In this document: positions 9,989 to 50,560 of the stretch, piece by piece
How positions within the stretch are numbered: position 1 is the stretch's first letter
How the letters are laid out: every line of letters starts with the position of its first letter
Assembly: GCA_006503475.1 (NCBI GenBank)
Contig: RSEH01000137.1
Coordinates: forward strand, 1 to 64,000
Direction of reading: 5' to 3'
DNA length: 64,000 nucleotides
From: Stentor roeselii
Lineage: Eukaryota; Ciliophora; Heterotrichea; Heterotrichida; Stentoridae
The notes under the pieces: generated by a model
Databases searched by the model: none
What the model saw: only the letters and a program-made list of their open reading frames with translations
Told to the model about the DNA's origin: nothing
Position numbers and translations under genes: made by a program

Positions 9989-11626
9989 ATGCACAACAGT
10001 GAATCTTTACAAAAGATTGCTGAGGTTTCAAACTACAAACTTCAAATCTTCAATCTGATCAATCAAATCTTTTCATTCAAGGAGCTAAATGATGAAACTA
10101 AGAACCGAAATGACCGACTATTTGAGAAAATAATTGAAAAATACAATAAGTTTCAGGGTAAAAGCTTCAGACAAAAAAATACCACGGTAATTGAGCCTTC
10201 GATAAATACAAAAATAAATACAAAGTTGAATTGCACTCTAAAAAGAGATACTCAAGCTGAAGAACATAATGAAAAATTATGTTATGTTAGTACTGAACAA
10301 TTAGTTTGTAATACATAGAAGGTAAGCATGATTAAGCTGGTAAATTTAACAAGGTGAAGAACATTAAGGTATTTATTATGAAGAATGTAGACATGATTTA
10401 GGTGAGCTTAATTCAGGTTAAATCTATTAAGATTGTATCTAAAATAAGGTTAAATATATCAAGCAAGTATTTCCAATTTCGGTTATCTTAAAAAGGTGAA
10501 GATCAATAAGATTGTGAAGAAAATCAAGGTAATCTTGAACAAGGTAAGATATTATCAAGGTTTTACTTACAAAGGTAAAAAATACTTAGGTCCTGTCCAA
10601 AAAGGTTGAGAAAATTAGATAGTCAAAGACATAAAGGTTAATTTTACAAAGAAAGTACCGAAGAAGAAGGTCAGCTTTGAAATAGATCGCAAGGATTATC
10701 TAGGTCACTGAAATTCAGGCAACTGATATCAAGCCGGTTAAAGATATAAAGGTTTTCCTAAATTAGGTCAGCGATATGAAGTCCGTAAAAGCAAAAAGAC
10801 TGTAAAAAAAACAAAGGTTTTTTTTAATGTGAGTGAAAATGAGTTAGGTGATTTATTTTTAGTTTGTGAAATCTACCAAGGTAACAAATACTTAGGTGAG
10901 ATCTGCTTAGTTTGTAAAGGATGTTGAGGTAACATTAATAAAGGTTATCTCTATCAAGTCAGTCTTTAAGATTCAGGTCAAAAACATTAAGATGGCAAAA
11001 TAAACAAAGATGGTCAGATAAAACAAGGTTTGAATTATCAAGATTGTAAATAAAATGCAGATGGTAAGGATTATCCAGGTATGAAGAATTGAGAAAGTGA
11101 GATTTATAAAGGTAATTATAATTAGAATGTACAAAATACCAAGGTTTGTTATAAGAAGGTTTAGTTTACCATAGGTGAGAATCAATAAGTCAGTAAATTA
11201 GATGCAGAGAGTGAAAAAAATCTAGGTAGTAGATATAGAGGTGATTGATGAAGAGATACTTTTTACGGAAAAAGTAAAAACAAGACAGTCTGTTTTTCAT
11301 ATTAAGGTGAATAAAACTCAGGGAGTTTTTTCCAAATAGGACATGAAGATGTTGGTATTGCTTAACAAGTTTATCAATACAATACTTCATCAAATAATAG
11401 TCAAGAAGGTAAATTTGAAATAGCAAGTTGATTATATATAGGCCGATCAGACAGTATATGATGTCTTAGAATGCAAGGATTAGACAGACTGTATTCTTAA
11501 GTAGTGTTCGTTTTTGATATTTTCACTCCAAGATTTATCGGAAAGTTCTATATGAGAGACGAAGCAGCAAAAACCACGATATTTGAAAATCTTCAGAAAA
11601 AATTCCCCAAATTGTTCAGTAGATAA
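9989..11626 (+). CDS. unknown protein encoded around a tandem array of about 65 minimal introns
   Basis: The first exon (9989-10303) encodes 105 polar, helix-prone residues (MHNSESLQKIAEV...). From 10304 to 11441 the sequence is a run of 14-16-nt GT/GC...AG units separated by zero bases or by whole codons. Removing every unit leaves 23 single-codon exons, then an 18-nt exon (11256-11273, ILFTEK), two more single codons, a 69-nt exon (11340-11408) open only in the phase predicted by this model, and one further codon (CAA). The tail is less certain: a 30-nt GT...AG segment (11454-11483) and a 14-nt one (11491-11504) would join to a last exon that reads FTPRFIGKFYMRDEAAKTT and ends in TAA at 11624-11626. 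Product about 210 residues; no family recognised. Gene model moderate, tail tentative. Confidence 0.55.
10304..11441 (+). repeat. tandem array of about 65 intron-like 15-mers (GT-N7-A-N3-AG)
   Basis: Read base by base, this segment divides into about 65 units: about 52 of 15 nt, seven of 14 nt, three of 16 nt, and a few degenerate ones. Examples: gtaagcatgattaag (10322), gtagacatgatttag (10387), gtcactgaaattcag (10704), gtaacattaataaag (10929). Three start with GC (10689, 10719, 10995), one ends CG (10467-10481), and a 31-nt stretch (10817-10847) is a degraded pair. By my count 57 of 62 clean units have A six bases from the 3' end, and this A keeps its distance from the 3' end in most 14- and 16-mers. 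Units either abut (AG|GT) or are separated by exactly 3 nt. The longest abutting run is seven units (10514-10618). Middles of neighbouring units are not alike, so only the splice-signal positions are conserved. Confidence 0.9.
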
Positions 11627-27020: not shown

Positions 27021-28472
27021 ATGAATGTACCAACGCAAGATACCTGTAAAAGTTTTAGATTCACACCAAGAAGAACTGAAAGCTTCGCAGATTCCCGAGT
27101 ACAGCCGAAAGAAGCGCCTTTCTCGAGAAATCGCGTGTTTTCTTTTAGTCAGAGCAAAAGAATTCATATTCAAAGGAAACAGAATCAAAATGATTTGAAC
27201 TCGACTAAGGATTCTGTGAACTGCACACAAACTACTAAAGCTAATTCTTCTGCGATTTCGAAGAAGACTTCAAGACCACTCACTGCTCAGAATAATCAGA
27301 AGACGAGGAAGTCTGAGGGTGATAAGTTTAAGTTCACTTTAAATATTCCTGAAGAACAGAAACAAACTATTTTTGGACCTGTTGTGAAAAAAATTTATAC
27401 ACCTGTTAATATTCGCACGCCTTTTAATCAGATTAATAGTGAGTGTCAGTCGACTGAGAGGAATAGGATTGGAATGAATAAGTATTGTATTGGGAAAGAT
27501 ATTGGAAAAGGAGCTTATGCAGTGGTAAAATCCATAACAAACAAGCAAACAAACGAAAAATTCGCCTTAAAAATCTACGACAAGTTAAAATTCACAGAAT
27601 CAAGTCGTCTCCGAAACGCATTCCGTGAGATCGAGATCCTCTCAAGCCTAAGCCACCGTAACATAATAAAGCTTCACGAGCACCACGATTCCGCTGAAAG
27701 TTTATATCTAATCCTCGATTTAATCCAAGGTCCTTCCCTCTCCGACCATTCAAAGCGTTATTTCGAGCGTCGACTTCCCGAAAAAGAAGCATGTTCAATA
27801 TTTTACCAATTAATGCAAGCAGTGAGTTACTGTCATTCCCAGTCAGTGAGCCACCGTGACATAAAATACGACAACATCCTTCTCGACGAGACCAGCACCG
27901 TCAAACTAATCGACTTTGGCTTCTCAACTCGCACCCAGTCACCTTCAAAGGTCTTCTGCGGCACGCCGAGTTACATGGCTCCTGAAATAATCCAAAAAGT
28001 TGAATATTTTGGACCCCCTGTCGACATCTGGGCTTGTGGAGTTGTTTTATTTGGTTTACTTTGTGGGTACTTTCCTTTCAAGTCACAAAATGATAAAGAC
28101 TGTTATAGAAAAATCATTGCTGGACTTGTTTATATTCCTAATTTCGTCAGTAAAGGGCCCAGAGAATTACTTGAAAAAATGCTGAGGACTAACCCTGATG
28201 CTAGGATCACTGCGCAGGAAGTACTGAAATCGCAGTGGTTTTTAGATATGCAGGTTTTGGATAGGAAAGGGGAACAAATTGGAAAAGAAATAAGTTTGGA
28301 CTTAGCGTTTGAACAGCTGGTAAGGATTATTTAGAGGAAGTTGGGGTATAGTGAGGATTATATCTATAAACAGATGCAGGATGAGAAGAGTCATATTAGC
28401 TTGTTGTATCATCAGATACAGAAAAATTCTACGTGTTCTGTTTTGATTAGAAGGAATTTTTCTAATGTTTAA
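27021..28472 (+). CDS. CAMK/AMPK-like serine/threonine kinase
   Basis: 478 residues after removal of a 15-nt intron at 28320-28334. Residues 1-150 are a basic, low-complexity leader. The kinase domain spans about 153-410: IGKGAYAVVKS glycine loop, FALKIYDK with the ATP Lys, CHSQSVSHRDIKYDNILLD catalytic loop, DFGFS, and CGTPSYMAPE in the activation segment. The second exon adds a UBA/AID-like tail (LRKLGYSEDYIYKQM), as found after the kinase domain in AMPK/MARK-type enzymes. The last codons lie inside the first diverged copy of the following tandem repeat. Stop is TAA at 28470-28472. Confidence 0.87.
28320..28334 (+). other. 15-nt intron, gtaaggattatttag
   Basis: GT...AG, 15 nt, A at position 10, phase 0. 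It contains the TAG that would truncate the kinase just before its UBA-like tail. Confidence 0.92.
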
Positions 28473-28908
28473 ATTAAGAGGGTGTAGATATTTTTTGTTA
28501 TTTGTATGGTTTTATGTCATAATATGCAGTGTTGAATTAAAAGGTTGTAGATAAGGCTTTGAACATAATTTGTATTTTCTAATGTGTTTATTAAAAGGTT
28601 GAAGATATTGCTTGGACATAATTCGCATTTTCTAATGTTTAAATTAAAAGTTTGAAGATAGAGCTATGGACATAATTCATATTTTCTAATGCTTTTATTA
28701 AAAGGTTGAAGATAGAGCTTTGAACATAATTCGTATTTTCAATGTGTTAATTAAAAGGTTCTATATAGTACTTTAAACATAATTCCTGCTTTTAATCTTA
28801 AAAAAATCTCCTTTCCTATATATCCCCGAAATCTGTTGATTATTAAAATTTTCAACCTGAGTTAATTTTCATTAACCCAGTCTTTAAATCCACCCCATTA
28901 ACCCAAAA
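28473..28908. repeat. intergenic with five ~54-bp tandem repeats
   Basis: From 28536 to about 28794 a unit starting 'attaaaaggttgaagata' and ending 'attttctaatg' recurs five times with substitutions. A more diverged copy covers 28455-28535, so the array seems to begin within the kinase gene's last codons. The remaining ~110 bases are the C/A-rich leader of the SAPS gene. Confidence 0.8.
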
Positions 28909-30513
28909 ATGTTCTCTGGCAACTTATTCGCGATGTTTTCAAACTTCCGAAACTTTTCAAGTAACCTCGACACCCTTCTAGACAATCCAGAAGTAACCTT
29001 AGGTCAAGTCCTAGACGAGGAAAGTGTAATTTCAAGTCTCAACACCCAGAACTCCAAACTAATCGACTAGTACTTTCTATTCAGCCTCTCCACTGATCGG
29101 CTTTCGAATCTTCTCGACTTCATCCTTGTCTTCCCAGAAGAAGGTTCTGACAACAAGCGGAGTTTTCGCTATCCTTTCATTTCCTGCGAAATATTCTGCG
29201 CGGACTGCAGCCCCCTTTCCACAAAAATCTTTGAAAGTGAAGCCCTTCTCATGAAATTCTTCGATTTTCTTGACTCTTCAGGAAATGCGATTCAAGTCGG
29301 GTATTATTCCAGGATTTTTCTGAACTTTTTAATGAAAAACCCGAAAATTTTGCTTTATTTACTTGCACAACTCGGATTTTTTCCGAAACTTGTTCAACTT
29401 CTGGATTTTCGGGCTTTTGGAGAGGTTATTGAAAAAATCGTGATTTTTGAAGCGAATGTTCAGGAATCTTTTATTAAACAAAGGGTGGAACTGGTGAAGC
29501 AGGTTGCTTTAATTGCGAAGGAAGATGGAAATAAAGGGAAAAATGCTGCACAGGTCTTGGTGAATGTTTTGAACTGGACTGGAGATATCAATAATCGCGT
29601 TCTTCTCGTCGATTTTTTTCAATCTGAAGATTTTTTAGATATTGTCTTTGAATCAGAGATTTTAACGGTTATTAAAAGTCTCATCACCTCGCCACTTATC
29701 AGGTCTCGAGAAATGATTTTAAAGAAATTGTCAAGTTTTTTACCGAAAATGAAAAAAATCTTAGAAAGTGAAACTGAAGAGATTAGAAATACTTTACAAG
29801 AAGTTATGAAAACTTTAGGAAATCGCAAAATTTTAGTCATTTCTATTGTTTTAGAAGCTCTTAAATGTCGAGAGGAAGGATTTTATCAGGAACTTGCATT
29901 TTCTGGGATTTTAGAAAAAATTTTGAAGTTGTTTTGGGAACATGAATGGAACTCGTTTTTGCATGTTCAGGTTTTTTCTATTGCGGAAATCATCTTACTC
30001 GGCCAAGATTCTCTTAAAAAAATTTTACTTGATGATTCTGGACTTTTGCAGGGAATAGTCACCCGGTTCAACTCGAACCCAAGGAAAAAAACGTAAGTTT
30101 TAAAAAGGTATCATCCAGAAATTAAACCTGGATATGATGGAGTTCTCATCAAAATCGCAAATTTAATTGAAAAAGTTGAAAAAAACTCTGAAGAAATCGA
30201 AAAAATCACGGAAAAAATAGAAGGATGGGATGATTTCAAGAAAAATACCTTGAAAAATAAGAATTCTATTCAAAGTCGACAACTTGGAGGATATACTTTG
30301 GCCAGCTTTGAACAGGATGATGTACCTTTGCCTGAAGAAGAGGTTGAAAAAGAGCAGATTGAAAAAAATGATGAAAATCTTTTGGAAACTGATGAAAATG
30401 ATGGAAACTTCCAGGAACTTGAACTTAGTCCTGATGTTAAAAAAACTACCTTGGAATGGAAGGATTTCGGCACAAGTGTAGTTGATATTGATGAAGAGTA
30501 TTGGAGGTTTTAA
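28909..30513 (+). CDS. SAPS-domain protein phosphatase regulatory subunit (PPP6R/SIT4-associated)
   Basis: 524 residues from three exons; introns at 29070-29084 and 30093-30107. The N-terminus carries the SAPS signature: LDTLLDNPEVTLGQVLDEE, NSKLIDYL across the first splice junction, and RSFRYPFISCEIFCAD. An armadillo-like helical repeat region follows to about residue 400 and an acidic tail ends the protein. SAPS proteins bind the PP6/Sit4 catalytic subunit and set its substrates, including TOR-linked and DNA-damage targets. Splicing is required: both introns remove stop codons or restore the frame. Stop is TAA. Confidence 0.9.
29070..29084 (+). other. 15-nt intron, gtactttctattcag
   Basis: GT...AG, 15 nt, A at position 10, phase 2. 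The unspliced frame hits TAG at the junction; splicing gives KLIDYLS, a conserved SAPS motif. Confidence 0.95.
30093..30107 (+). other. 15-nt intron, gtaagttttaaaaag
   Basis: GT...AG, 15 nt, A at position 10. Splicing removes an in-frame TAA and gives KKTYHPEIKPGYDG. Confidence 0.93.
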
Positions 30514-30884
30514 TAGAAAGACAAGTTTTTATAGGATAATAAAGGATTAATTGAGTTATGATGTTTTATTGATGGATTATAAAGGATTAATTGAGCTATG
30601 ATGTTTTATCGAAGGATAATAAAGGATTATTTGAGTTATGATGTTTTATTGAAGGATAATAAAGGATTATAAAGGATTATTTGATTTATGATGTTATATT
30701 GAAGGATAATAAAGGATTAATTGAGTTATAATGTTTTATTCAAATGAGGTTATTTAAACTAAAACCTAGGTTTATCAAGAAAAATTCAATTTTCGATAAA
30801 ATTTCATCAATTAAATGAAAATCAATATAAACTCATTACATCCCAAAAAGCCATTCCTAAATCCTTAATAAAACCTTACTTACA
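30514..30884. repeat. intergenic with five ~40-bp tandem repeats
   Basis: At 30534-30743 a unit beginning 'ggataataaaggattaattg' and ending 'gatgttttattgaa' occurs five times. Four copies are 40 bp and the fourth is 50 bp through an internal 10-bp duplication. It lies between convergent 3' ends, like the 54-bp repeat upstream of this gene, but the unit is unrelated. Confidence 0.85.
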
Positions 30885-31676
30885 TTAAAACTCCGATTTC
30901 AAATTATGATTTATTACCGTCAAACACTTTTCACAAAGTATCTTCCTAACCTCATCCAAACTCAAACTTTCCCTTAATTCCTGAGTGATTTTTTCAATCT
31001 TTCCCAAGAGTTCATCTTTTTCCGTTTCCAACTGAAGCGCTTCAATTTTCAAGTTTTCAAGAAGAAATTCAGCTTCACTGCATTGTTCACTCATATTTTT
31101 TTCAGCACTATTAAGTTCATCTAAAATATTCCTGAGTTCATCAGCGACTTTTCGAAGCCTTGCACCTCGATTTTGTTCATTTTCCAAGGTGCTGATAAGT
31201 TCTTGCTCATATTTTTTATGATTCCACTCTTGTTTACTAAGTTCCATTTCAATATCATTCACCATACTTACCTTGTTCACATGTTCTCTAAATAAACTCT
31301 CATTGGTTTCTTTTGATTCTTTCAGTTCTAAAGCGATTCGAGTGATTTCTTTCGAGATTTCTTCATCGATCTCTTTTTTTGTCTCTTCTAAGTCGCAAGT
31401 ATCACAGATGGAAACTGACTCGTTCATCAAGAAACGCTTTCGGGTGCAGTGGTCTGAGCAGAAACAGCTGAAACAGACCTGACAGATTATTTTCCGACGA
31501 AGGACAAAACCTTTACGGCAAACTTGACATCGTTTGCCAAGACTGTCTTCTCCTGCTGCTGATGACTTGTTGGCTGGGTTAACCATGCCAGGTGCCGTCG
31601 AATTGGTAGTCGCTTCAGAAACCCAAGACTCATCATCCCGGCCCTTGTCCAACAACGACTTTCCCGATTGTTTCAT
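30885..31676 (-). CDS. FYVE-like zinc finger and coiled-coil protein
   Basis: 263 residues from ATG at 31676; a longer frame to 31739 would overlap the divergent J-domain gene and is not used. Residues about 50-92 hold a treble-clef pattern: CQVCRKGFVLRRKIICQVC, then CFCSDHC and CDTC, resembling FYVE/FYVE-related fingers. The classic R(R/K)HHCR patch is degenerate (RRKIICQVC), so PI3P binding is uncertain. The rest (about 95-260) is coiled coil. Stop is TAA. Confidence 0.75.
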   Translation of the reverse strand: MKQSGKSLLDKGRDDESWVSEATTNSTAPGMVNPANKSSAAGEDSLGKRCQVCRKGFVLRRKIICQVCFSCFCSDHCTRKRFLMNESVSICDTCDLEETKKEIDEEISKEITRIALELKESKETNESLFREHVNKVSMVNDIEMELSKQEWNHKKYEQELISTLENEQNRGARLRKVADELRNILDELNSAEKNMSEQCSEAEFLLENLKIEALQLETEKDELLGKIEKITQELRESLSLDEVRKILCEKCLTVINHNLKSEF

Positions 31677-31687
31677 GTTTATAAAAA

Positions 31688-32053
31688 ATGACAACAAAAA
31701 AATCTTTCTATCAAGTCCTCTGCGTCTCTCCAGATTCATCAGAAGCTGAAATGAAGCTAGCTTACCACAAACTAGCCCGAAGGTATCACCCAGACAAGAA
31801 CCTTGACGACGAAGAAGCGGCTACAGAAAAGTTCAAAGAAGTGATTTCCGCCTACAACACCCTGAGCGACCCTTACAAAAGAATGGTTTACGACTTGTAC
31901 GGGGCCGAAGACGATAAAACCCTCGAGTCCAGTCGCAGTGAAAAGTCCAGCGAAGAATGGAAGAATCTGGAAAAAAGGACTGCAAGAAAAGCCAAAAGAA
32001 GCCGGTCGAGAACTGACAATCGCCGAGGAAAAGGAAGGAAAACTTCGAATTGA
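31688..32053 (+). CDS. J-domain (DnaJ/HSP40-type) protein
   Basis: 121 residues. J domain at about 6-70 with the HPD motif (ARRYHPDKNLDDEEAATEKF) and helix IV LSDPYKRMVYDLYG. A Lys/Arg/Ser-rich tail follows (KRSRSRTDNRRGKGRKTSN), suggesting nuclear or RNA contact. No Gly/Phe or zinc-finger region, so it is a class C J protein that would stimulate an HSP70. Its ATG is 11 bases from the divergent ATG at 31676. Stop is TGA, rare in this window; the next in-frame stop (TAA) is 45 bases on. Confidence 0.88.
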   Translation: MTTKKSFYQVLCVSPDSSEAEMKLAYHKLARRYHPDKNLDDEEAATEKFKEVISAYNTLSDPYKRMVYDLYGAEDDKTLESSRSEKSSEEWKNLEKRTARKAKRSRSRTDNRRGKGRKTSN

Positions 32054-33600: not shown

Positions 33601-34650
33601 ATGGAATTACTCAAACAAATCATTCGACAGAAACAGGAAAAAAAGAACTGTGAAAAAGAAGCACAAGTAGTGAGAGGAAAACAGGAATCTAATGGAATGG
33701 ATAATTTATTGGATGAAAAAAATAACACCTTGGATACGATAAATAACACCCTAGAAGAAAAAAATATCGATTTGGAAGAAAAAAATATCGATTTGGAAGA
33801 AAAAAATAACACCCTGGAAGGAAAAAATAACACCCTGGAAGGAAAAAATAACACCCTGGAAAGAAAAAATAACACCCTTGAAAGAAAAAATAACACCCTT
33901 GAAAGAAAAAATAACACCCTGGAAGAAAAAAATAACACCCTGGAAGATAAAAATAACACCCTAGATGAACCTGAACTAGTTTTTAGATTAAGAAAACTAA
34001 AACAACCTGTCAAGCTATTTGGAGAGTCATTCCAAGAAAGACTAGAAAGGCTGATGAAAGCTGAGGAAGATTTCATTCAACGTAAAAGAAACAAACCAGA
34101 AGCTGAAGTCAACATCTCAGCTTTAGAAGAAATCTTTCCTGCTGATGTTGGTTTATATGAAGATTCAAGTTTTTTCAGGCAAGCCCGTGAATGTCAAAGT
34201 TTTGAATCGCAAGGCAAGGTTTGGAAGAAAGAAAAGTGGAGACATCCTTTTATCGAAGAGGCTGAAGAACTTGATCAAGTATCCAAGTCATTAATTATCA
34301 GTCTTTATTGGAGGACTGTTTTAGAAAAATGGACTGAAAACTTCAGAGATGAAGAAAGAAAATTGTATTCTTCGACCCTTTTGATATTTAAAAAACTGAT
34401 TCATGTTTTGAAGATGCAGGATCTTCAAGATCAGGTGTTGAATATGCTGTTTATTTGTGTGAGACACTGTCAGCTCCATTCGTATCAAAAAGCTTATGAT
34501 GTGCATCTGCAATTGTCAAGTCTCACTTCATTCCACAAAAATGAGCACAAGTCAGGAGCAATGAACTCAGACCTAGGTTTCCGGAAAATAGCTCAAACAT
34601 TCAAGCGAATAATAACTTTATCCGAGAGACTTTTCCCTTCCCATTGTTGA
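33601..34650 (+). CDS. PRP18: pre-mRNA splicing factor Prp18 with a heptad-repeat insert
   Basis: 349 residues. Residues about 36-122 are about twelve imperfect copies of a 7-residue unit (KNNTLEE and variants), mirrored by a 21-bp DNA repeat at about 33716-33975. Next comes the Prp4/Prp18-type motif LRKLKQPVKLFGESFQERL (about 129-147). The C-terminal helical Prp18 domain lies at about 215-345 (VSKSLIISLYWRTVLEKW, YQKAYDVHLQLS). Prp18 acts with Slu7 in the second step of splicing at the 3' splice site. The 'WPIGVT' loop typical of other Prp18 proteins is not conserved. Stop is TGA; read-through would run about 300 bases into the next gene. Confidence 0.72.
   Translation: MELLKQIIRQKQEKKNCEKEAQVVRGKQESNGMDNLLDEKNNTLDTINNTLEEKNIDLEEKNIDLEEKNNTLEGKNNTLEGKNNTLERKNNTLERKNNTLERKNNTLEEKNNTLEDKNNTLDEPELVFRLRKLKQPVKLFGESFQERLERLMKAEEDFIQRKRNKPEAEVNISALEEIFPADVGLYEDSSFFRQARECQSFESQGKVWKKEKWRHPFIEEAEELDQVSKSLIISLYWRTVLEKWTENFRDEERKLYSSTLLIFKKLIHVLKMQDLQDQVLNMLFICVRHCQLHSYQKAYDVHLQLSSLTSFHKNEHKSGAMNSDLGFRKIAQTFKRIITLSERLFPSHC
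33716..33975 (+). repeat. 21-bp in-frame tandem repeat inside Prp18
   Basis: About twelve copies of a 21-bp unit like 'aaaaataacaccctggaag', encoding KNNTLEE-type heptads. Copy-to-copy differences are few, so the array is probably young or still changing length. Confidence 0.9.
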
Positions 34651-34675
34651 ATTTTAGCCATAATAATTAACAGTT

Positions 34676-35110
34676 ATGAAGAGAACAAAAGAAAACTGGC
34701 TCTTCGGTCATCCAGAAGACAGGTCAGAAATCTCAGGACTGCGAAAATTTGACGGAGAGGACTTACACTACCAAGAAAGAAAAAAAGCTCAGCAAGAGAC
34801 TCAGAAGCGCTGGTTAGAAGAGCAGAAGGCGGAAAAGGAAAGAAGGAAACAACAGGAGGAAGAAGAAGAAAGAATGTACGCCTTTCAAACAATCCAAGCC
34901 AACAGGATGAGAGGAATGTTAGAAGACGAGTTAGAAAACAAGAAGAGAACAATGCAAGCCTCAACACGAGACACTAACATTCAGCTTCACAGAGAAAGAA
35001 TGGATAAAGAAAAAAGAGAAAGAGAGACCAAACTCAGAGCAGAAGATGACGAGCTTGATCATCAGGCGACTATTCGAAAAGTGCCGGGATATGTGAATCC
35101 ATTGGAGTGA
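34676..35110 (+). CDS. RIB43A-like doublet-microtubule protein, short form
   Basis: 144 residues, highly charged. Family features: LFGHPEDR near the N-terminus, FDGEDLHYQERKKAQQETQ followed by KRWLEEQKAEKERRKQ, then an extended helix. RIB43A/RIBC proteins are filamentous inner proteins of ciliary doublet microtubules, usually about 380 residues. Only the N-terminal third is present and no continuation is seen downstream, so this is either a short family member or a truncated one. Stop is TGA followed by GTT TAA. Confidence 0.7.
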   Translation: MKRTKENWLFGHPEDRSEISGLRKFDGEDLHYQERKKAQQETQKRWLEEQKAEKERRKQQEEEEERMYAFQTIQANRMRGMLEDELENKKRTMQASTRDTNIQLHRERMDKEKRERETKLRAEDDELDHQATIRKVPGYVNPLE

Positions 35111-45271: not shown

Positions 45272-46599
45272 TTATTGGTTATTTTGGTTTGTAACTCTGG
45301 AGATTTTGGTTAAATTACCGTCTTCCCAATGGCCGTAGATTTTTAAATTACAGCAAAAAATTACTCCTTTTCCATGAAAATTATCATTTTTCCAACCTCC
45401 GAAATAAAACTGATTGTTATTCATGATTAGTTTTCCAGTGCCTTCTCGTTTCCAATTATTTAACTGGCCAATATATCGATTAAGATTAGAATATCTGTAG
45501 ATTCCGTGATAATCTCCTGAAAGTCTATTTACAACTCCTTCAAAACTTTCACCGTTTTCAGAAAAAATTTTAATTTTTTCTTCATCTTTCTGAAAGTTTC
45601 GGTTTAACTCAATTCTTTCTGTTTCATACAAATTCCAAGATTCAACAATAGGAAGATTGAAATTATTTAAACAATGTTTTGCTACTACCAGATAAGAGAT
45701 GTTTTGTCTTTGTTCTAGTTTGAATCTTTTTATCAAAAATAAATTGGATTTTAAGGTCAATGAACTATTTATGGAAGAGAGGATATTTAGACTTATAGCA
45801 AGAGCTTCTTGAGATTTTTCTAATGGACTAAAATCTTTAGAATCTACTTTTCCTTCATAAACAAGTAATTTATTCTGAAATATTTTCCCTTTAGATTCAG
45901 GTTTATCATCTGTGAATTTAATCTTGATTTTATAATCAGATATATAAACTTTAAACATTCCATTCTTTTGAAATCCTTTAAAGTTTCCTTTAAATTTGAA
46001 TCCTTGATTTAAATCACTTTGAACAGCTAATCCGTAAAGATGACCATGATAAAACTCTCCTTTAAACGAGGAAAATTTATCGATCAAAAAACCTTTCCCA
46101 TGAAATTTTCCTTCTCTAAAAAAACCTCGATACTCATCCTTAATCCCAATTAAAATTCCAAACCCTTCAGGTTTTTGGTTCCATTCTCCGTAGTATTTTT
46201 TATTTTCATAAATCTTAATCTCAAAGCGATTAGATTCGAATTTATATATTTTTTTGCTTAAATCTGAACAAAATTCTGACTTTATTGAGATAAAATGAGA
46301 TTTAGACCCATCTAATTTTTCATAAAAATAGCCTGATTCTTCGAAGGTGATGAAAGGATGAACTAAGTAACAAAAGGATTCTTTGTATTCACTGTGAAGA
46401 ATTTTAGGAACTCCTTTTTTAAAGGTGATTTCATGCATGTTGTTTCGGTAGAGCAACATTCCTTTGCCTGATTTGCGACCTTTTTCCCAAGGTCCATGGT
46501 AAATAAGTTCAAGACCATCGTAAGTTTTGTTACCTGTTCCGTGAGGATCCCGTTTTCGACTTCACCTTCATATATTCCAAGGAAATCAAAATATTTCAT
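45272..46599 (-). CDS. MORN-repeat protein 1 (one-base frameshift near 46547)
   Basis: Starts MKYFDFLGIYEGEVENGI at 46599, then the frame must shift by one base near 46545-46550 to continue as PHGTGNKTYDGLELIYHG and run on to TAA at 45272. The joined protein would be about 442 residues, colinear with the paralogue at 49238-50560. MORN units are clear at both ends (YEGEVENG, HGPWEKGRKSGKG, IGQLNNWKREGTGKLI, FGGWKNDNFHGKGVI). A one-base loss in a CCC run explains the break; assembly error or a real allele cannot be told apart here. MORN repeats bind lipids or cytoskeleton. Confidence 0.7.
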
Positions 46600-47554
46600 T
46601 TATTTTAAAAACTGTGAATTCTAATAATATAGAATAAATAATATGGGAAAAGTGAAGATTTTCTTGATTAAGATGATGAAGGATTGAATTTAAGCATTTT
46701 TTAATAGTGAGTTAATGATTATAAGAATTTGATTAAGGGTTAAACTTAACTTGCATAATTATTGAACATAAAGATGGAAGTAAGATTAATTGATTAAGAT
46801 ATAGTTATTGTACTTTAATTTGATATTTGTTTAGATACTAAACGCAATAAGATTATAAATAAGTACTTTATGATCGCGAATCAAATCGATCGATTTTGAA
46901 CAGTCAAAGTAACAGAAGATTGATCATGATTTATTTGGTTTTTATTCTGAGATTTTTCTCTGTTCAGGTCTTTACAATTGTTAAGCTTGATAAGATTAAA
47001 TGTGCATAAGAATAAAGATTGAAGCAAGTTTTTTTGGAAAAATTATCTTCAACCTTACCAGGATAAAAAATTTTAAATATTTAATCTTCTAAAATTTTGA
47101 ATGGCAACGTAATTGACATAAAATATTTGATTAATCATTTCAAATTTAGATTGGCTATTCAAATTGGTTTATAAATCTATACCTGGTAATATTAACTTGC
47201 AAGAGTTTGGTAATTTGATGTTAATTTCATTTATGGTTTTCATTTATATTATACAAGTTCTTATCTTTTATTCTCATTAATTGTCAAATGGCAGTCAATA
47301 TGGTTTTATTAGATATAAGAAAATTTATTAAAATTAGGTTGAATACAATTACATTCTTGCTATTATTTATATCTTTTATATATCGCATCTTGGCACACTC
47401 CTTAGTTTAAGGTATATTATAGTGAAGTTTCGTATATAGTTGCTTAAAATCTTCATGATCATATGTTAAAATTTGCTTCAAAGATTACTTGTGAATGTAT
47501 TTCATTTAAATAGTAAGTTTGAATATAGCTTGTATAAACTAGATCAATATAAAA
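46600..47554. other. intergenic between divergent MORN genes
   Basis: 955 bases, very AT-rich. No ORF, repeat or RNA gene with support. Confidence 0.45.
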
Positions 47555-48895
47555 ATGCTTGAAGATGATTTTGGGAATTTTCAAGGCTCAGTAAAAAACT
47601 CTCTGCCAAATGGTGCAGGCATAAAAATCTACAAAACAGGTCACTCCATCGAAGGAACCTGAGTGCAAGGGCGTCCAGAAGGAAGAGTATTCCTCTCATC
47701 TCCACCTGAATACTTACCTGTGACCTTCAAAAATGGTAAAATCAGTCGAATCCATACAGATAAACCTTATATTTCAATTCATTTCCCTTACATCTTTTTA
47801 GAAATCAACGGAAATTATCATGAAAAACTAAATGATCCAGAAAAAAGTTGATTTTCGACTTTAAAAATCTCTAAGAATTATGATTTTTTTGAAAAAGCTA
47901 TAAATAAAAAGCTCTTAAATGTCAGAAGCTTTGAAATCAAGAATATTAAAGGTTATTTTAAGTATTTTGGAGAGTCTATTCAAGGGATTTGTTTTAAAAA
48001 AGGTCACGGATATGGAATTTATTTTAATGAAACTGAAGTTTATGCAGGATTTTTTGATAATGGACTGTTGGGAGGGCCTGGGTACATTGTTTATGGAGAT
48101 TATTTGATTTTAAAGGGTAACTTATATGAATATTCGATAAGTGGTCCTGGGACTTTAAAGCGACTAATACTGAATCAAAAAATCAAAGGAAACTTCAAAA
48201 AGAATTTTCAACATGGAAAGTGCGATGTTTACTTCGATCAATTTAGAATAGAAGCTTTTTATGATAATGGAAGACTAATCAATCCAGTGAAATACTACAA
48301 AAATGAAAGATTTATTGCAGAGTTAAGAGCTGAAGATAGAACTTTTATTCCACTTGATAAGGATCTTCTTCCAAAAGATCTTGCTGACTATTCCAGAAAA
48401 GTTAATGAAAAAATGATTGAATTCATAAAATTTCTCAAACAGCGCCATGGAAATAACTTTGCGAAAAAAAATATTGAAAACAATTTGATTGATGAGATGT
48501 GTTTAAATGGATTTTATGAAATAAATTTGGATTTATTTTGGCTTACTTATGAAATTATTAAGTTGGAAAGGACAGCATCGCAGGTTAAAAGTGATGTAAA
48601 TGATGATATTATGAGGAAAAATGATAATAAGGATAAATGGAGACCAAATAATGTTTCTTTTGAGTTTGAAACATATTATTATCCCTCTGGTGATAAGTAC
48701 ATCGGCAGCTTTAAGGAAGGAAAAAGAAATGGGCTTGGAGTTTATTTAAAGCAGGGGAGTGTTTTCTATAAGGGTTATTGGAAAAATGATTTTTTTGATG
48801 GAAAAGGTAATTTATTTTTGGGAAAGGTTAAAATTACTGCGATTTGGGTGATGGGCGTACCTAAAGGGCCAGTAAAATTACTTGAATTAGAATAG
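47555..48895 (+). CDS. MORN-repeat protein 2 with two in-frame TGA codons
   Basis: From ATG 47555 (MLEDDFGNFQGSVKN) one frame runs 446 codons to TAG at 48893-48895, interrupted only by TGA at 47660-47662 and 47849-47851. The first TGA sits exactly where both paralogues have Trp (EGTW in the gene at 49238, HGPW in the one at 46599). The second aligns with an aromatic residue in the paralogue at 49238. Codons elsewhere are intact, with MORN units such as YIGSFKEGKRNGLGVYLK near the C-terminus. Either a young pseudogene with two TGG-to-TGA changes, or UGA is read through as Trp here. A shorter product could start downstream of the second TGA. Confidence 0.55.
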
Positions 48896-49237
48896 ATAAT
48901 ACCTTCTGAACTCTTTTATATCTTAACATGCTACTAAACTAGTAAACTTTTATTTTTATAAAAATTTTTCTTTGAATTAATTTCTTTATTTCTAATCTAA
49001 TAACTATAAAAAATTAAATTAGAGCTGTTTAATATATCAAACGAAATCTATTTGCCAATCTCAACAAATACCTTGAGTTCCCAATCATCATCTGCACACT
49101 GGATATGCAAAAATAAAAAATCTTCAATCCAATCCTCTGAACATCATTTGAGATTATGATTGAGAAGGCTATAGAGTAAGTTTTGATAAATCTTATAATC
49201 AATTAATCAAACTAATCATTCTCATATCTATCTAATA
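48896..49237. other. intergenic, nothing seen
   Basis: 342 AT-rich bases between tandem MORN genes. No feature with support. Confidence 0.4.
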
Positions 49238-50560
49238 ATGCTAAAAACATCTCACGGTACCTATCATGGACAAACAATCAATGGAGTCCCCAACGGCTTC
49301 GGCAAAAAAACTTTTTTTAATGGTTACTCACTTGAAGGCACTTGGAACCAGGGTATACCTGAAGGCAGGCTAAACTTAAAAACTCAAGACATAGAAATTA
49401 TTGTGACATTCAAAAAAGGACTGATTTCCAAGATTCATACAGAAGAATCTATTGTAACTCTTCAGTTTCCTTATAAGTATCAACGATTTCAGAACACTTT
49501 TGATGAAATTTTTGATGAGTCTAGCACAAGTTTTTATACGAATCTAAAAATTGTTATAGGACAAAGTGTATTTGAGAAAACTTTTAATAAAAAGGTCAAA
49601 AATGTTCAAAAGGTCAACAAATGTAATTATTATTTTGGGGAAGTTGAAAATAATGATACTCCACATGGCGTTGGAATCATGGTTTTCAATGAGAATAATT
49701 TTTATTATGGGGAGTTTGAAAATGGAAAGATTAATGGTTTTGGAAAGTTTATTAAAGAGCTTTCGACTTTTAAGGGAAGATATGTTAATGGTATGCTAAA
49801 TGGAAGAGGGCAACAAAAAGATAAAATACGAAGATTAAAGTTTATAGGAAACTTTGAAAATTTCAGAAAGGTAGGCGATTTTGTGATATATTTATCAGAT
49901 TTTCGGCTAGAATGCAATTTAACACAAAATCACTATCAACATTCAGTGCTAATAAAATACTACAGAAAAGAACGATATTTAGGTGAAAATTTAGCAGATT
50001 CATTGAATTTTGAACCAATAGATGGCTACATTGGCGAAGATTTACTTGATTTTATAAGAATATCTCAAATGAATTATCATAAATATATAGATTCAATTAA
50101 AAGCTCTTCACATCAGAGCCCAAATAGAGTTCGGCATGCTTATATTAAGTTATCTCATTTAAATAAAAAAAAAATTCTACCTGATGTTAAAAACTGGCTC
50201 GATTATGAAATATCTGAAGTTTCTAAATTAAGAAAATTTTCTATAAAAAAATTTCAAGAACCTAAGAAAATTTTAAGAAATGATGAGTGTAATTTGAGTA
50301 CTTCAGAAAGAATGGAAAATGGAAAAAGTATTGTGAAATGCTCCTTCTTGGTGAGAGATGAGGTTTATGTGGGAGAAATGGCAGGGGGATTGAGACATGG
50401 ACTTGGAATTTTTAAGAGGTTTGATGGGTTCTGTTATAGGGGGTACTGGAAAAATAACAAGTTCCACGGAAAAGGAGAACTAATTAAAGAAAATTTGAAA
50501 ATAGCAGGCTTTTGGGAATCTGGAAGATTATTAGTTGTGTTTAGTATAGTTAAAGTTTAG
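49238..50560 (+). CDS. MORN-repeat protein 3 (intact copy)
   Basis: 440 residues. N-terminal MORN units (YHGQTINGVPNGFGKK, LEGTWNQGIPEGR), central ones (YFGEVENNDTPHGVGIM, YYGEFENGKINGFGKF, FKGRYVNGMLNGRGQQ), and a C-terminal pair (YVGEMAGGLRHGLGIFKR, YRGYWKNNKFHGKGEL). The 120 residues between them are Lys-rich and helical. It is the only one of the three clustered paralogues with an unbroken frame and serves as the reference for reading the others. MORN proteins sit at membranes and cytoskeletal structures. Stop is TAG. Confidence 0.85.
   Translation: MLKTSHGTYHGQTINGVPNGFGKKTFFNGYSLEGTWNQGIPEGRLNLKTQDIEIIVTFKKGLISKIHTEESIVTLQFPYKYQRFQNTFDEIFDESSTSFYTNLKIVIGQSVFEKTFNKKVKNVQKVNKCNYYFGEVENNDTPHGVGIMVFNENNFYYGEFENGKINGFGKFIKELSTFKGRYVNGMLNGRGQQKDKIRRLKFIGNFENFRKVGDFVIYLSDFRLECNLTQNHYQHSVLIKYYRKERYLGENLADSLNFEPIDGYIGEDLLDFIRISQMNYHKYIDSIKSSSHQSPNRVRHAYIKLSHLNKKKILPDVKNWLDYEISEVSKLRKFSIKKFQEPKKILRNDECNLSTSERMENGKSIVKCSFLVRDEVYVGEMAGGLRHGLGIFKRFDGFCYRGYWKNNKFHGKGELIKENLKIAGFWESGRLLVVFSIVKV

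Follow-up and report, generated by a model that had tools for sequence, protein, structure and literature searches.

The window analysed here, a stretch of 64,000 nucleotides, carries on its forward strand between positions 9989 and 11626 two short open reading frames separated by about 1.2 kb of DNA that falls into intron-like units of 14 to 16 nt. The upstream frame begins with an ATG at 9989 and is open to 10318; its first part, a putative exon 1 (9989-10289, coding log-odds 0.138), holds 100 codons including the ATG plus one further base, and the chain of units is entered in phase 1. The chain itself (10290-11504) is resolved into 69 candidate introns and 32 internal exons, with the introns placed at 33 sites, one to seven at each and all in phase 1. 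A candidate last exon (11505-11626) then supplies the two bases that complete the open codon, 39 further codons and a TAA stop at 11624-11626. Judged from the letters of the DNA, this is probably a protein-coding gene of a heterotrich, most likely Stentor, that uses the standard genetic code and whose middle portion consists of about 69 tiny introns of the U2 type.

The chain opens with the candidate intron GTACTGAACAATTAG (10290-10304), which competes with another 15-nt candidate at 10304-10318 that leads into a different frame. Most of the internal exons in the final path are single codons, 27 of the 32 being exactly 3 nt long, and the remaining five are one of 12 nt (11442-11453), one of 15 nt (11340-11354), two of 18 nt (10464-10481 and 11256-11273) and one of 39 nt, the longest (11370-11408). 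In the parse, the longest run of introns with no exon between them comprises seven units (10514-10618), and GC-AG introns lie at 10689-10703, 10719-10733, 10995-11009 and 11473-11487. The chain closes with introns of 16, 15 and 14 nt (11454-11504), separated by the codons AAT and ACT. The sequence-only reading that drew attention to the region had placed about 65 introns between 10304 and 11441, with three GC donors and exons of zero or one codon. The array proved somewhat larger than that, with one more unit before those limits and three more after them, and the fourth GC donor, at 11473, lies among the added units; the description of the exons holds for most of the chain but not for the five longer exons, nor for one apparent nested intron (see below).

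The 69 units account for 1,032 nt and comprise 56 of 15 nt, eight of 14 nt and five of 16 nt. All end in AG, and 65 begin with GT and four with GC, although these ends were demanded by the parse. An A at position -6 from the 3' end, which had been claimed for about 57 of 62 clean units, is found in 62 of the 69, as against 23, 19 and 33 units with A at -5, -7 and -8. Within the 15-nt units (n = 56) the most informative positions are 1, 2, 10, 14 and 15, with a weak preference for A at positions 4 and 8. The unit middles do differ from one another, as had been stated, with interior identity at the column background (0.33).

Comparison with shuffled sequence, which had been named beforehand as a possible refutation, gave far fewer units than the locus. 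The pattern GT-N(6-8)-A-N3-AG starts 57 times on the plus strand of 10304-11441, whereas 500 dinucleotide shuffles contained 9.6 on average and never more than 19; it occurs about 2.3 times per kb of plus strand in the rest of the window, and on the minus strand of 10304-11441 there is no occurrence. Furthermore, pairs of abutting 15-nt units that both carry the A number 17 in the 64 kb, all of them inside 10354-11321, where 0.13 would be expected. The excess of the pattern and that of the abutting pairs together argue that the array is real.

The first parse was made by dynamic programming without regard to reading frame; each unit had to begin with GT or GC and finish with AG, and an A at -6 and a length of 15 nt were rewarded. 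Because the unit ends were demanded, the test of the GT/GC-AG ends lies in how much of the region is covered in comparison with random sequence. The stretch 10261-11560 was therefore parsed again, still blind to frame, under six scoring schemes from which rewards were removed, each with 200 random first-order sequences. All six schemes found 69 units in the stretch fitted, where the random sequences averaged 22-38 and reached maxima of 31-47, and 67-68 of these units, 50-56 of them 15 nt long, fell within 10290-11504. When 15 nt was favoured and the A went unrewarded, 61 of 68 array units had A at -6 (random fraction, 0.40); when lengths of 12 to 20 were all treated as equal and the A again went unrewarded, 67 units were found, of which 50 were 15 nt long and 58 had the A. 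The range for the A in the absence of any reward is thus 58-61 of 67-68 units, compared with 0.40-0.41 in random sequence. These parses and the shuffles bear out the claim that 10304-11441 is tiled by such units almost without remainder.

The lengths of what is left between the units are equally non-random. In the frame-blind parse with the A unrewarded, 27 of the 33 leftovers in the array were exactly 3 nt and 32 were multiples of three; across the six schemes 30-32 of the 33 were multiples of three, whereas in 300 random sequences the mean fraction was 0.32 and the largest 0.65. The 14- and 16-nt units are needed for this result, since a parse with 15-nt units alone (56 units) left multiples of three in only 21 of 32 cases. 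The first parse failed at one place in the array, a leftover of 16 nt at 10817-10832 that was the only one not divisible by three. If the 15-nt unit GTGAGTGAAAATGAG (10829-10843), which has A at -6, is taken out first, the preceding GTTTTTTTTAAT joins TTAG to form a 16-nt intron that also has A at -6; in this way 31 nt disappear (10817-10847) and the frame is kept. With moderate weight, as one parse of a short stretch, 10817-10847 is apparently a nested pair of introns.

Removal of the units in silico joins the frame that begins at ATG 9989 to the one that ends with TAA at 11624-11626, giving 201 codons. The 13 units of 14 or 16 nt break the unspliced frame repeatedly and the spliced frame is open, which is what removal of the units predicts; we know of no other reading that explains an intact spliced frame in spite of 13 shifting units. 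This open frame supports, at the level of sequence, the earlier proposal of a chain of real introns with exons of zero or one codon that is held by selection for splicing. Moreover, phase 1 is shared by every one of the 33 intron sites, while the seven ordinary introns listed for the window have phases 0, 0, 0, 1, 2, 2 and 2.

The choice of path through the chain depends in part on the downstream frame. The full path, which respects the frame and contains the one nested pair, scores 26.5 under a scheme in which exon bases beyond the array cost nothing. Four paths extend past 11500; this one ranks first among them, and the path in the second open frame reaches 17.6. Higher scores, up to 35.2 against 26.5, were obtained for five of 96 candidate ends (11248-11365, every one within the array), because such paths save the cost of the later exons. 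Three of the five were traced: they have 58-62 introns, the nested pair included, and run into a stop within the array; in two of the three this comes about because the beginning of a unit is left in. Since five paths score above it, the full path was chosen by its match to the downstream open reading frame and not by score alone.

Several tests addressed whether the internal exons look like coding sequence in the predicted phase. Their composition by codon position is fitted best by phase 1 (log-likelihood -234.6, against -238.3 and -247.3), and when letters were permuted within exons (n = 20,000) only 0.04% of permutations reached the phase-1 fit and 0.7% left the frame open. If stops are disregarded, the mean score of the 33 split codons is 0.139 and that of shuffled letters 0.090, but 22% of shuffles reach the value of the real codons, which is not significantly coding. 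Permuting the order of the exons gave an equal or better score in 97.5% of cases, and only 2.9% of the permuted orders stayed open. Codon log-odds had been considered as strong proof of translation; this use was dropped after the split-codon shuffles in favour of the phase likelihood test, and a coding figure of 0 in 5,000 was not relied on, as it was inflated by its own stop penalty.

A second frame through the chain, phase 0, is also open; it is entered by way of 10304-10318 and ends at a TGA at 11553-11555. Its array score is 0.036, compared with 0.179 for phase 1, and on sequence grounds phase 1 is preferred, although both frames may be in use. The two candidates for the first intron, 10290-10304 and 10304-10318, overlap by one base and feed two stop-free frames of about 62 codons, and a switch of frame by alternative splicing is possible. 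When single 15-nt units are taken as retained, 22 of 55 contain a stop in phase 1, against 24.6 expected from column shuffles, and no phase is enriched or depleted. Because the stop content is that of the shuffles, there is no sign here of selection either for nonsense-mediated decay or for tolerated retention.

The units resemble the ordinary introns of the window and of a related ciliate. Outside the array, eight 15-nt candidates that join reading frames were counted, and the seven printed all have A at position 10, in agreement with the earlier statement that seven ordinary introns share the 15-nt form; a further 76 frame-joining candidates of 13, 14, 16 or 17 nt we read as mostly due to chance. 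The excerpted text of PMC9505925 gives 8,806 annotated introns for Stentor coeruleus, 92.8% of 15 nt and 7.2% of 16 nt, and the branch A falls on position 10 or 11 in about 96% of them. GT-AG ends and the position of the branch A are common to these introns and the array (PMC9505925), 62 of the 69 array units having the A in the Stentor place, position 10 of 15 or 11 of 16; in length, 61 of the 69 are 15 or 16 nt. The 14-nt length, seen in eight array units, is absent among the annotated introns of S. coeruleus as described there (PMC9505925). The genes differ more than the introns do, in that most intron-bearing genes of S. coeruleus have one or a few introns, whereas about 69 are packed here into 1.2 kb, mostly abutting or one codon apart (PMC9505925). 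The same excerpt (PMC9505925) describes genes that have over eight introns as uncertain; loci like this one may therefore be present in the annotation without having been recognised. As far as the sequence can tell, the units would belong to a known type, that of the tiny heterotrich intron, and their arrangement is new to us.

The array donors are nevertheless weaker than ordinary ones at position 3, where GTA is found in 32 of 67 array units and, among the window's ordinary introns, in 7 of 7 (p = 0.012), and this makes full splicing efficiency somewhat less likely. Within the array, GTA begins 21 of 33 units that follow an exon and 11 of 34 that abut an upstream AG (p = 0.015); as one of nine comparisons this is a hint only, namely that the upstream AG may help pairing with U1 at abutting donors. 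Another irregularity is the 18-nt exon at 10464-10481, which reads CAA followed by GTATTTCCAATTTCG. Its last 15 nt (10467-10481) look like an intron that has no final AG and are read as five codons in frame, which suggests that introns of the chain can turn into exon.

Both irregularities would fit if the locus were a decaying or unexpressed relic of a chain that was once spliced, with the flanking open reading frames surviving by chance or because the loss is recent. The equally stop-free second frame can be counted on the same side, as can the failure to find a homologue in Pfam, NCBIfam, solved structures or viral contigs. We nonetheless regard such a relic as unlikely. Nearly all of the stretch parses into units with intact ends, and the branch A is kept in 62 of 69 units whose interiors are saturated with change; decay sufficient to randomise the interiors would also have erased the splice signals. 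A spliced frame with no stop likewise speaks against decay.

It is less probable still that the region is removed in large steps, either in one piece, as an intron of some 1.2 kb, or in blocks of units lying between the longer exons. The whole span from the first GT through the last AG could likewise be excised without loss of the frame, and fungal stwintrons are occasionally excised almost whole as one (PMC12403724). An intron of 1.2 kb is, however, without annotated precedent, all 8,806 introns of S. coeruleus in the excerpt of PMC9505925 being 15 or 16 nt. Large-step removal would not conserve the inner signals, and it offers no reason for leftovers of three bases or for their fit to the predicted codon phase.

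Since 15 nt equals five codons, the units might instead be mistaken for introns in a region that encodes a pentapeptide repeat of the Val-x-x-Ile-Lys type, in which GT starts a valine codon and AAG is lysine. The control for this was a scan of viral and prokaryotic collections for four-unit chains, which returned 6 and 35 stretches, respectively (n = 41); a five-unit chain pattern found no match in the viral contigs. A stop-free frame runs across the chain in 39 of the 41, as is easy for the shorter ones, and the one that was examined closely is indeed a peptide repeat (GGGQQ, L002); in L033 and L012, the two mimics that have no open frame, unit identity is 0.88 and 0.80, respectively. Chain length alone is not special, as 3 of the 41 have at least 13 units by the strict rule. 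By that same rule the chain in the window has 13 units, but with an identity of 0.33, whereas mimics of at least six units have identities of 0.61-1.0, and the six mimics below 0.5 are chains of four or five units in open frames; no mimic combines a long chain, unlike units and stops in all frames. Stops are present in all three forward frames of 10290-11504 (38, 46 and 30), and this refutes a continuous coding repeat under the code in use. Furthermore, the fifth codon of the units always ends in AG, and is TAG in 12 of 56 units of 15 nt (AG was demanded by the parse, but little of the region is left unparsed). The 20 long open reading frames of the window use AAA for lysine 710 times and AAG 301 times, and because AAA is preferred, a repeated peptide would not keep AG at nearly every unit end; 13 of the 69 units, moreover, are 14 or 16 nt. 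A coding repeat is accordingly very improbable. Hardly credible, too, is a non-coding minisatellite with a unit that is intron-like by chance: it would explain why 1.2 kb of DNA repeats with a period of 15 or 18 nt, and duplication is the likely origin of the chain, but at a minimum score of 40 Tandem Repeats Finder lists no array at this place, neighbouring interiors (lag 1) are no more alike than distant ones (3.25 against 3.28 of 10 matches overall), and only the splice-relevant columns are strongly held, which upholds the earlier judgement that this is not a fresh minisatellite.

The most far-reaching account, to which we give a probability of roughly 0.75, is that of a working gene in which introns would outnumber the codons they interrupt: about 62 codons, one to seven abutting introns at a site, one nested intron, and some 69 splicing reactions for a protein of 201 amino acids. 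For a spliceosome able to use 15-nt introns, the signals of the intron itself are sufficient, and extending this principle of intron definition to the present organism, each unit of the transcript, if the locus is transcribed, would be recognised singly and then excised. The approximately 62 codons would be interrupted at 33 phase-1 sites by one to seven consecutive tiny introns, and the product remaining after splicing would be exon 1, the 32 tiny phase-1 internal exons and the last exon, 201 codons in all. The sequence-only reading had held that removal must be sequential or recursive. Abutting AG|GT introns would in fact need no fixed order, because each removal leaves the ends of the neighbour in place, and they could be taken out in any order; for the nested pair at 10817-10847 the requirement does stand, as the inner intron must go before the outer one. 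Steric limits nevertheless suggest that removal would be serial rather than simultaneous. By simple arithmetic, the yield of complete mRNA would be the per-intron efficiency raised to the 69th power, or 0.50 at 99% and 0.03 at 95%, and one could speculate that this falling yield makes the gene act as a strong brake, or else lets it sense splicing capacity.

A founder intron in phase 1, copied in tandem either alone (15 nt) or together with one codon (18 nt), is the probable source of the chain; this is argued by the finding that all 33 sites share one phase. A 15-nt duplication would be silent for the protein, and an 18-nt duplication would add one residue. The growth would be old, since the interiors show no similarity that depends on distance and pairs that are very similar are only slightly in excess (15 pairs with at least 8 of 10 matches, against a mean of 6.5 and a maximum of 15 in 300 permutations). 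By this comparison of units, the interiors appear to have diverged to saturation, the splice signals excepted. That an array so old still has intact splice signals is the best sign of function.

Searches with the spliced protein placed it in no known family. Against Pfam, the only match was a sub-threshold one to DUF6169 in exon 1 (E 0.0033; 18 bits, with a cut-off of 27), which with exon 1 alone fell to E 0.031, and the C-terminal 83 residues had no Pfam match. Nothing credible was found in NCBIfam (best E 0.073) or among solved structures (best E 1.7), a peptide pattern matched five stretches in viral contigs with none confirmed as a homologue, and tblastn within the 64-kb window gave no significant match outside the gene. 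The window has no tRNAs and no Rfam families at the gathering threshold.

The genetic code can be judged from the 20 long open reading frames of the window, of which 10 end in TAA, nine in TAG and one in TGA, so that TGA is rare as a stop; the spliced frame of the gene contains no TGA. A code of the Blepharisma type, with UGA as tryptophan (as given in the excerpt of PMC9942806), was considered and does not fit, as for instance an open reading frame of 1,791 codons has 19 TGG and no TGA. A few frames of the window, among them 47555-48895 and 33601-34977, do continue past one or two TGA. The first of these lies in an AT-rich stretch (45272-50560) with MORN-repeat proteins at 49238-50560 and, if TGA is read as tryptophan, at 47555-48895 (otherwise the open reading frame is 48068-48895), and with a third, sub-threshold MORN match at 45272-46459 on the minus strand. 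The second contains the open reading frame 33601-34650 on the plus strand, whose product has a PRP4-like domain above the Pfam cut-off and a sub-threshold match to Prp18, and on that sequence evidence is perhaps a splicing factor of the Prp18 type; its N-terminal part has about twelve 7-residue repeats of the KNNTLEE type, encoded by a 21-nt tandem repeat (33710-33969). Other tandem repeats are one of 54 nt at 28529-28785 (4.8 copies, 82% matches), just downstream of a protein kinase frame (27021-28334), and one of 40 nt at 30533-30740 (4.9 copies), between the frames 29251-30096 and 30885-31739.

Elements of the proposed arrangement are known from other systems. Almost all fungal stwintrons, which are nested spliceosomal twin introns, are split between the first two bases of the donor, and the introns concerned are of ordinary fungal size. 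Here, unlike in stwintrons, the split would fall after base 12 of a 16-nt intron that is itself part of a chain of 69. The likeness would be that of an intron within an intron, with the inner one removed first, which in the present case is read from sequence (excerpt of PMC12403724). The ratchet points of Drosophila share with the array the juxtaposed AG|GT joints of acceptor and donor, but as described in the excerpt of PMC8605326 they are sites within long introns, and their use depends on a cryptic exon which is later skipped. In contrast to such recursive splicing, the pieces in the array are 14-16 nt and no long intron is involved, the longest that is needed being the 31-nt nested pair. 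The 1-nt exon of Arabidopsis APC11 resembles the array exons in being far too short for exon definition, but it is a single tiny exon, whereas the gene described here would have 27 exons of 3 nt (PMC4674806). Thus stwintrons, ratchet points and single-nucleotide exons, as represented in these excerpts, each share one element with the array, and none is a chain. Among the literature matches listed (titles and abstract openings, a scope outside which the Slabodnick 2017 genome paper falls), no gene of this kind appeared, and PMC12862383 has nothing on abutting introns in the points checked.

If RNA confirms the chain, this would be the densest arrangement of introns known to us, and the locus would become a test bed for how 15-nt introns are handled, for whether exon sequence is needed (given exons of zero and three bases) and for how introns multiply. 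Gene finders tuned to few introns may call such loci as two short open reading frames with non-coding DNA between them. The uniform phase and the saturated interiors together provide a concrete model, in which introns duplicate in tandem and the duplication is neutral because each copy is removed. If the reading is true, the heterotrich spliceosome would need no exon sequence, and the number of introns in a heterotrich gene could grow in the manner of a minisatellite.
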